This document shows positions 1 to 40,656 of a stretch of 64,000 nucleotides of DNA, piece after piece. The stretch spans positions 2,480,001 through 2,544,000 of the forward strand of contig NZ_CP011454.1 in assembly GCF_000695095.2 (NCBI RefSeq). Reading direction: 5' to 3'. The notes beneath the pieces are model-generated. The model saw nothing but the letters and a program-made list of their open reading frames with translations, was not told the origin of the DNA and did not search any database. The position numbers and the translations under genes were made by a program. Numbering within the stretch: the stretch's first letter is position 1; every line of letters begins with the position of its first letter. The stretch is from Gemmatimonas phototrophica. Lineage in GTDB: Bacteria; Gemmatimonadota; Gemmatimonadetes; Gemmatimonadales; Gemmatimonadaceae.

Positions 1-219
1 CGGGTCTTCCTTGATGAGCATCGGCTCCGTACCGGTGGTCCGTGCCAGGTTGATGGCCTTCACGATGTGTTCGGCCTCACTTTGCACGCGCGCTTCCAGT
101 TCCTGAAACAGGATCTCGCGTCGGACCGCCAGCAACGTGATGGAGAAGATGAACAGCGTCCCGATGGACGCCGCCGTCCAGGCCACCGTCAGCCGCGCGC
201 GGATGGACCGCATGGCCAT
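1..219 (-). CDS. Sensor histidine kinase, N-terminal fragment (runs off the window)
   Basis: The reading frame starts at an ATG at 219 and stays open to the window edge, giving 73 residues. It begins with a short basic stretch, then one hydrophobic segment (about residues 10-32), then a charged region rich in E, A and R that looks like the start of a periplasmic sensor or linker. An AGGAG ribosome site overlaps the TAG stop of the upstream response regulator, so the two are translationally coupled. Membrane topology, position directly after an OmpR-type regulator, and coupling together imply the cognate sensor kinase. The kinase core is outside the window, so the assignment rests on context. 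A second in-frame ATG lies two codons downstream at 213. Confidence 0.7.
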   Translation of the reverse strand, partial: MAMRSIRARLTVAWTAASIGTLFIFSITLLAVRREILFQELEARVQSEAEHIVKAINLARTTGTEPMLIKEDP

Positions 220-39020: not shown

Positions 39021-39623
39021 ATGGCCCATACTCTTCCGGCCCTGCCGTACGCCGCAGAGGCGCTCGAGCCCCACATTGATGCGCAGACCATGAATATTCA
39101 TCATGGCAAGCATCACCAGGCGTACGTCACCAATCTCAACGCGGCCATTGAAAAGGCGCCTGAGATTGCGGCGTGGTCATTGGACGAGCTGTGCAGCAAG
39201 ATCAATGACGTGCCGGAAGCGGTGCGGACGGCGGTACGCAACAACGGCGGTGGGCACTGGAATCACTCGCTGTTCTGGCAGCTCATGGCACCGAACGCCG
39301 GCGGAGAGCCGACGGGTGCGTTGGCCGACGCCATTACCAAGGCCTTTGGCTCGTTTGCCGCGTTCAAGGAGCAGTTCCAGGCCGCCGGCATGGGTCGCTT
39401 TGGCAGTGGCTGGGCGTGGCTCATTTCCACCGATGGCGCGCTGTCCATCATGAGCACGCCGAACCAGGACAACCCACTCATGGAAGGCAAGCACGCCCTG
39501 CTGGGCGTGGACGTGTGGGAGCACGCCTATTACCTGAAGTACCAGAACCGTCGCGCCGATTATCTCGGGGCGTTCTGGAGCGTGGTGAACTGGGCGGAAG
39601 TGTCGAAGCGGTATCAGGGCTGA
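39021..39623 (+). CDS. sodA: Superoxide dismutase, Mn-type
   Basis: A 200-residue Fe/Mn-family enzyme. The metal ligands H27, H82, D164 and H168 are all in place ([24 protein letters not shown]). Q149 in TPNQDNP sits where Mn enzymes carry their active-site glutamine, and a glycine fills the position of the Fe-type glutamine, so Mn or cambialistic use is likely. GGAGA precedes the ATG. There is no signal peptide, so it is cytoplasmic. A very long inverted repeat follows the stop. Confidence 0.96.
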
Positions 39624-39630
39624 AGTGTGA

Positions 39631-39772
39631 ACTGAGTACTCAGAACTCGAACTGACGACTGATTACTCGAACTGAGAACTAAAAACTCCCCCTGGCATCT
39701 CGAAATGCCCGGGGGAGTTTTCAGTTTTGAGTAGGAGTGTTCAGTCGTCAGTTTGAGTTGTCAGTACTCAGT
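39631..39772. repeat. Long inverted repeat (68-bp arms) with terminator core
   Basis: The left arm (39631-39698) and the right arm (39705-39772, reverse complement) match at 57 of 68 positions by direct base comparison, around a 6-base loop CTCGAA. The inner part (39682-39692 with 39711-39721, plus 39694-39698 with 39705-39709) is a strong bidirectional terminator with A/T flanks. The outer part consists of ACTGA/ACTC-rich words, with ACTCGAACTGA repeated at 39645 and 39665. It fills the gap between the converging sodA and TauE/SafE genes. Confidence 0.9.
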
Positions 39773-39777
39773 CAAAA

Positions 39778-40656
39778 TCAAGCGACAGCCGGCTCCTCAG
39801 TCTTCCGCCGCGCCGACAGGATGAGCGTGACCGCTGTGTACGCCACGACGATGGCCACCAGCCAACGCAGTGCCGTGAGCGGCAGAGACTTCACGATCAG
39901 CGCGGCAACCAGCACGGCCGGCAGCCCGCCAATGATGTTGCCCACCACGGCGCGAGGGTCAACCTTGCCCAGCCGGATGAAGCGATCGCTGGCAAAGGGC
40001 ATAAGGAAAGCACAGGATCCCATCATGATGGGGAATCCGGCGGCCGGGTTCATGCCGAGCATGCTGACCAGCAGGAGGCAGGGACCATAGAGGCCGATGC
40101 CGATGGTCATCAGTACACCGAGCACGAAGTTGCCAAAGAGTGCGATACCCAACTTGACACCAGTCAGGCCAATCGCTTCACCGCCTCCGGGAATCTTGCC
40201 CGCGGCTTGCGCAATGGTGAGCAACGCCGCGCCGGCAAGGCAGAGCCCCATTCCCAACTGGATGCGCTGAGTTGGCCACTTGGAGACCAAACCCGCACCG
40301 ACCCACGAACCGAAGACCGCCGCCACGATCATACCGACCAGTGTGATGGCGTCCACTTCCACGACCTGCGTGTAGATGAACGCCTGGGCCAGCGTGGACA
40401 TGGTGTGCCCGGCGTTGAGCGTGCCGGGAATGAGCGCGTCCTTCACCCACTTGGTCGCACGATAAATCGTGGTACTGGTCGCGAACGACCCAATGCCAAG
40501 CGTGTCAAAGAAATCCGTGACCGTGCCGTGCAGAATCAGGCCGGGGGTTGGCTTGATCGAGCCGAGCTTGGGGAGCCCTCGCACGAGCGAGATCACGTGA
40601 TACACGGTCACGAGACCGAGGCCGATGAGCAGCAGCAGCTTGGCGTCGAATTGCAT
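39778..40656 (-). CDS. TauE/SafE (TSUP) family membrane transporter
   Basis: A 292-residue protein with about eight hydrophobic helices and the two related halves of the TSUP family: GTVTDFFDTLGIGSFA in the first half and IGLYGPCLLLVSMLGMNPAAGF in the second. Such proteins export sulphite, sulphonates or related anions. The substrate cannot be told from sequence. It converges on sodA across the long inverted repeat and appears to be a single-gene unit. Confidence 0.85.
   Translation of the reverse strand: MQFDAKLLLLIGLGLVTVYHVISLVRGLPKLGSIKPTPGLILHGTVTDFFDTLGIGSFATSTTIYRATKWVKDALIPGTLNAGHTMSTLAQAFIYTQVVEVDAITLVGMIVAAVFGSWVGAGLVSKWPTQRIQLGMGLCLAGAALLTIAQAAGKIPGGGEAIGLTGVKLGIALFGNFVLGVLMTIGIGLYGPCLLLVSMLGMNPAAGFPIMMGSCAFLMPFASDRFIRLGKVDPRAVVGNIIGGLPAVLVAALIVKSLPLTALRWLVAIVVAYTAVTLILSARRKTEEPAVA

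Follow-up and report, generated by a model that had tools for sequence, protein, structure and literature searches.

The window, a 64,000-nt stretch of the Gemmatimonas phototrophica genome, contains two convergent genes whose 3' ends are separated by a long inverted repeat. The forward strand encodes sodA (39021-39623; Fe/Mn superoxide dismutase, Pfam PF00081 and PF02777) and the reverse strand a TauE/SafE family gene (39778-40656; PF01925), and the repeat occupies the gap between their stop codons (39621-39623 and 39778-39780). A repeat search delimited two arms of 71 nt each (39631-39701 and 39702-39772), 83% complementary and with zero gap; this is the same object that the first-pass annotation had described as an inverted repeat with 57 of 68 positions matching around a 6-nt loop. 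No other inverted repeat in the 64-kb window has arms of 25 nt or more lying at most 200 nt apart. Its folding energy, on both strands, is -110 kcal/mol against -56 +/- 4.5 kcal/mol for shuffled sequences (z = -12; 0 of 200 shuffles).

Each arm was found by the repeat search to consist of three direct 20-nt units, and the ACTGA and ACTC words noticed there earlier are real. By direct reading, the left array (39631-39687, forward strand) comprises three 20-nt direct repeats and nine ACT triplets (template score 9/9), which start at 39631, 39638, 39645, 39651, 39658, 39665, 39671, 39678 and 39685 and are thus spaced 7, 7, 6, 7, 7, 6, 7 and 7 nt apart. The right array (39716-39772), identified by direct reading and template score, carries nine ACT triplets on the reverse strand in the same 7-7-6 phase. 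The sodA stop codon ends 7 nt ahead of the left array, and that of the TauE/SafE gene lies 5 nt beyond the right one. Between the arrays, folding identified a core (39688-39715), the terminator-like hairpin CCCCCTGGCATCTCGAAATGCCCGGGGG with AGTTTTCAGTTTT at its 3' side, which folds at -23.6 kcal/mol, its ACT/AGT ends included. The earlier description of a terminator-like core inside a structure longer by far than a terminator needs is borne out. The idea of a duplicated terminator unit did not hold, the arms being arrays of phased triplets and terminator-likeness being limited to the core.

The first-pass annotation had proposed a genome search for further copies and had allowed for a single chance expansion, with neither copies nor conservation. 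In the host genome (4,716,552 bp, one closed contig), blastn found about 40 further places that match the repeat; together with the conservation at orthologous sites described below, these exclude a single expansion. The pattern ACT-4-ACT-4-ACT-(2..4)-ACT gave 65 matches per strand in this genome, whereas the reversed pattern, as a control, gave 6 and 0. We extracted 42 places and read them individually. The copies have a shared plan, [ACTGANN ACTGANN ACTCNN] x3, a core, and then the reverse complement x3; among those with two arms, 31 point inward and four outward, and the remainder carry only one arm, or one that is short or degenerate. About 0.6 Mb of the host genome (1921656-2519625) is free of copies, and elsewhere there is one per approximately 115 kb. 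Immediately past 3860178 (L053), the array gives way to a hexanucleotide microsatellite, (catgtt)n. An Rfam search with the element returned sub-threshold chance hits only, none at the gathering score.

The spacing of the triplets is the most regular property of these copies. Consecutive ACTs are 7 nt apart in 416 cases, 6 nt in 146 and some other distance (up to 12 nt) in 15, such that 562 of 577 spacings are 6 or 7 nt against a flat background in the flanks of the arrays, and 365 of 369 successive spacing triples are permutations of 7-7-6. Counted outward from the core, the ACTs begin at 0, 7, 14, 20, 27, 34, 40, 47 and 54, which is 20k/3 rounded up, and their register relative to the core is identical in related species. 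The ACT bases are kept at 98% in 70 arms, a figure somewhat inflated by ascertainment because copies were recruited through ACT-rich similarity. Filler bases, by comparison, behave as random draws from the column composition; units within one arm are at most marginally more similar than units from different arms, and copies resemble each other no more than column composition predicts, the tandem pair at 4527339/4527487 excepted. These data bear on the possibility of a neutral minisatellite, generated by slippage and template switching where insertions are harmless. Exact tandem units at 1727244 and 1715867, the duplicated element at 4527339/4527487 and the frequency of heptamer arrays in other phyla are as such a process would produce, but near-invariant ACTs among randomised fillers are unlike the neutral decay of copies, the register from the core is fixed in several species, and there is little or no similarity from unit to unit. 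We consider a minisatellite origin quite unlikely.

Given its predicted fold, the repeat might instead be an RNA element, either an extended intrinsic terminator or a hairpin that stabilises 3' ends, in which the arms form one long stem of the transcript. We compared the arms of each locus with each other and with shuffled partners. Identity between arms at variable positions was 0.619 within loci and 0.621 with shuffled partners (32 loci), and at the most variable positions 0.369 in both cases; compensatory agreement between the arms of a locus was absent in 28-32 loci, with ample power, and some 38% of the variable arm positions are mispaired. Thus, pairing does not maintain the arms, and the strong predicted fold follows from conserved ACTs and a skewed filler composition. 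The cruciform suggested in the first-pass annotation, or any hairpin held by arm pairing, is accordingly unsupported. The core behaves differently from the arms: its outer five pairs agree within loci above shuffles (26/5000), a weak pairing excess that is confined to the core. About one third of cores are strong terminator-type hairpins, and the G+C-rich hairpin followed by a U-rich stretch seen at the sodA copy is present in that third and weak or absent in the rest, several cores being weak or unpaired. An RNA element would account for the strength of the fold (z = -12), for these terminator-type cores and their pairing excess, for a location right behind stop codons, and for the near-identical core at the sodA site of a related genome (G005). 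It does not account for arms without covariation and with many mispaired positions, for the weak or unpaired cores, or for a strict 20-nt phase, which a stem does not need, and we regard it as unlikely.

The arrays are found mostly at gene ends. The median distance from an array to the stop codon facing it is 9.5 nt, and 41 of 52 such distances are within 30 nt; with a simple custom ORF caller, 13 loci were assigned as convergent, 25 as tandem and three as divergent. The divergent exceptions are at 790935, 1711876 and 2662748 in the host genome, where gene starts are uncertain because of open frames that run through the AGT arrays. Some copies lie inside likely operons, namely between sufB and sufC, between sufD and a NifU-like gene, and between nusG and the L11 gene. 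Where genes are in tandem, one arm would be read in the transcript as ACU and the other as AGU; at 21 such loci the former keeps 179 of 189 triplets and the latter 180 of 189. Arrays also occur in both orientations and keep a strict 20-nt period, close to two turns of B-DNA; along with this equal retention, these features favour, though they do not prove, recognition of duplex DNA rather than RNA. On account of the equal arms at tandem loci, recognition of ACU in single-stranded RNA was rejected. We also rejected the notion that ACTGA supplies stop codons in all frames, as dialects with ACTCA, ACTCG or ACTACG lack the stop.

Other genomes of the genus carry arrays with different fillers, or 'dialects' (e.g., ACTAAC, ACTCGA and ACTACGA), in an unchanged 7-7-6 phase. 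Arrays were absent from all 16 genomes that belong to other families in the order, and from several near-complete genomes of the genus, the closed genome G021 among them. Within the genus, G000, G016 and G020 are rich in arrays, and G001 and G013, like G021, are free of them. Sixteen arrays found by pattern were taken from near relatives (G003, G005, G006, G009, G016 and G018), and ten of these sit at array sites of the host genome (G000). Related Gemmatimonas species therefore carry versions of the element at orthologous sites, as the first-pass annotation had suggested should be checked. Ten arm comparisons at three of these shared sites gave an identity of 97% for ACT bases and 49% for fillers. 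The sodA site holds a near-identical core in G005, where full arrays are missing, a short array in G003 and a plain terminator in G021. At the junction of sufD and the NifU-like gene, arrays are present in G000, G006, G009, G016 and G003, whereas merely 5-17 nt separate the genes in G004, G013, G021, G042 and G043; stop-codon positions at the compared junctions were taken only where the stop was clear. From the arrays at orthologous sites and the comparisons at these two junctions, the arrays are of old standing at many sites, were lost in some lineages and, in G006, look partly decayed. Close relatives lack most of the arrays, and this, with the plain terminator of G021, means that their function is dispensable. 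Loss of SbcCD, which might permit long palindromes, was rejected as an explanation of this distribution because 29 of the 30 genus genomes have an SbcD-like match, albeit mostly below the curated cut-off.

Several further observations were made in these genomes. At the sufD junction (L234, L235), the coding DNA on either side is almost the same in G006 and G009, yet the arrays at this one position differ in dialect (ACTGA and ACTCA, respectively), a pattern that looks more like replacement of the array than mutation. After dnaN in G006 (L296), a core shared with the host adjoins a perfect 18-nt inverted pair that lacks ACT (TCGTACGACGAACGGGAA); ACT arrays lie outside this pair. Another part of G006 (C2:138000-157900; L218) has five ACT arrays in about 16 kb, none at an array site of the host, and several of them are preceded by a similar gene end. 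In G020 (L225, 2899-3452) a whole inverted ACT array with the core ACTCACGTGAGT occurs as seven copies head-to-tail; a Gemmatimonadota MAG (L100) shares this core. A second palindrome family, with the core ACTGATCAGT and heptads of ACCC type, is present in the host at 790935-791075 and 1218460, and in two further loci (L262, L263) after a 716-aa gene with E1/transketolase domains. Its arms show a compensatory change between G006 (ACCCAGA..TCTGGGT) and G018 (ACCCAGC..GCTGGGT), and on this sequence comparison the second family may be a true hairpin.

The distribution of the arrays also bears on the initial proposal of a mobile palindrome, which would be a REP/REPIN or MITE element disseminated by a transposase. 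Such elements would explain the many dispersed copies and a sufD junction that holds the element in some species and a gap of 5-17 nt in others. Against this, a profile search for Y1 transposases (PF01797) gave no match in the host, the most copy-rich genome, although it matched in eight of the 30 genus genomes and in the E. coli control. Copies lack any similarity or lineage signal beyond column composition; arrays are kept at the same sites in related species; and no target duplication was noticed. A REP/RAYT type is unsupported, and a mobile palindrome of either kind seems to us very unlikely.

Arrays of this kind are not confined to Gemmatimonas. A stretch of seven ACTs in 7-7-6 phase (43 nt) occurs 117 times in GTDB genomes, mostly in Bacteroidota and also in Cyanobacteria, Acidobacteria and others, with only two matches in viral contigs; this cross-genome scan covered the triplet ACT. 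In 17 of these genomes a five-ACT pattern gave 1-23 matches each, compared with 0-3 for the reversed control. Of 70 cross-phylum arrays, 41 lie within 15 nt after a stop codon and have AGT on the strand of the gene, and the other three arrangements account for 6, 6 and 3. In two Flavobacterium loci, opposed ACT arrays lie exactly between the stop codons of convergent genes. Outside Gemmatimonas the 6- and 7-nt steps follow a looser order. In Maribacter ulvicola (L336, L337), clusters of AGT arrays lie inside long repeats of approximately 330-370 nt, possibly a larger repeat unit that carries arrays.

The anatomy of the elements, their strict phase, the constraint on ACT and not on fillers, the equal arms without covariation, the 3'-end location and the orthologous conservation were all computed directly. 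The explanation that we tentatively prefer, and to which we would give nearly an even chance, is that each element is a pair of opposed arrays of phased sites for a putative sequence-specific protein that binds double-stranded DNA, placed around an often terminator-like core as a two-sided 3'-end cassette. The putative protein would read the ACT triplet in duplex DNA, with protomers set at steps of 7, 7 and 6 bp, so that three fit into 20 bp, or some two helical turns; they would probably line up cooperatively along the DNA. The filament bound beside stop codons would most likely serve as an insulator or roadblock that affects both transcription and DNA topology, and the inverted repeat would be a by-product of head-to-head site arrays flanking the central core, often a terminator-like hairpin. 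We infer the reader, its cooperative binding and the roadblock or insulator effect, the last being the least certain step; a full roadblock would be expected to do harm inside operons, where copies do occur. Presence or absence of the ribbon-helix-helix family (RHH_1), considered as a reader, shows no clear tracking of the arrays. A broader proposal, which we regard as doubtful, is that opposed phased-ACT arrays at gene 3' ends in Gemmatimonadota, Bacteroidota and others form a cross-phylum DNA-marking system, with a putative reader that is spread horizontally, often lost, and polymerises at three sites per 20 bp to organise or insulate gene ends. With a single fixed triplet every 6.67 bp, and with the other bases and the palindrome free, this class of repeat separates a sequence that looks like a hairpin from one that is a site array, and the arrays make a putative DNA-binding factor directly testable.

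We found no description of this site code (invariant triplet, free fillers and fixed 7-7-6 phase) in the searchable literature, and on Gemmatimonas palindromes and repeat words a directly relevant description was found only for the TAACTGA repeats considered below. The STRR repeats of Cyanobacteria are heptamer arrays, some with units that contain ACTG in reverse complement; unlike the Gemmatimonas arrays they are exact tandems that have neither a core nor a fixed 20-nt phase. REP/BIME and REPIN elements are similar in being numerous intergenic palindromes at gene 3' ends and within operons, and differ in that our host has no Y1 transposase and its arrays have neither a fixed palindrome sequence nor covarying arms. 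The DNA uptake sequences (DUS) of Neisseriaceae come in species dialects in which a CTG core is invariant, and they often stand as inverted pairs at terminators (PMC3630211). By this close formal analogy the arrays might be a species-specific uptake signal; yet a genome carries thousands of DUS, as single 12-mers, and about 40 loci of ours, as arrays, and such a role seems extremely improbable. Omega (ParB) of plasmid pSM19035 is a small protein that cooperatively reads contiguous 7-bp sites in mixed direct and inverted orientation (PMC9499535). The likeness is in contiguous short sites, direct or inverted, with a reader that in our case is putative; omega heptads are centromere sites on a plasmid, in 7-bp steps, whereas the arrays lie at gene ends in 7-7-6 steps. 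The TAACTGA heptamer repeats described by MacGregor (2015) in Beggiatoaceae, Cyanobacteria and five Bacteroidetes are exact heptamers in direct 7-7-7 order, almost without inverted repeats, located mostly ahead of start codons in the main genome studied, and protein binding has been proposed as their putative function (PMC4679880). They share with our arrays an intergenic location, a 7-nt unit with ACTGA and a patchy occurrence over distant phyla. The Gemmatimonas arrays differ in that only ACT is fixed, in 7-7-6 phase with variable fillers, and that they are opposed around a core at gene 3' ends; exact TAACTGA units in direct 7-7-7 order are absent from them. No known system matches the Gemmatimonas arrays in all respects and the TAACTGA repeats are the nearest; the arrays may offer a common explanation for the scattered heptamer repeats of Cyanobacteria, Beggiatoaceae and Bacteroidetes.
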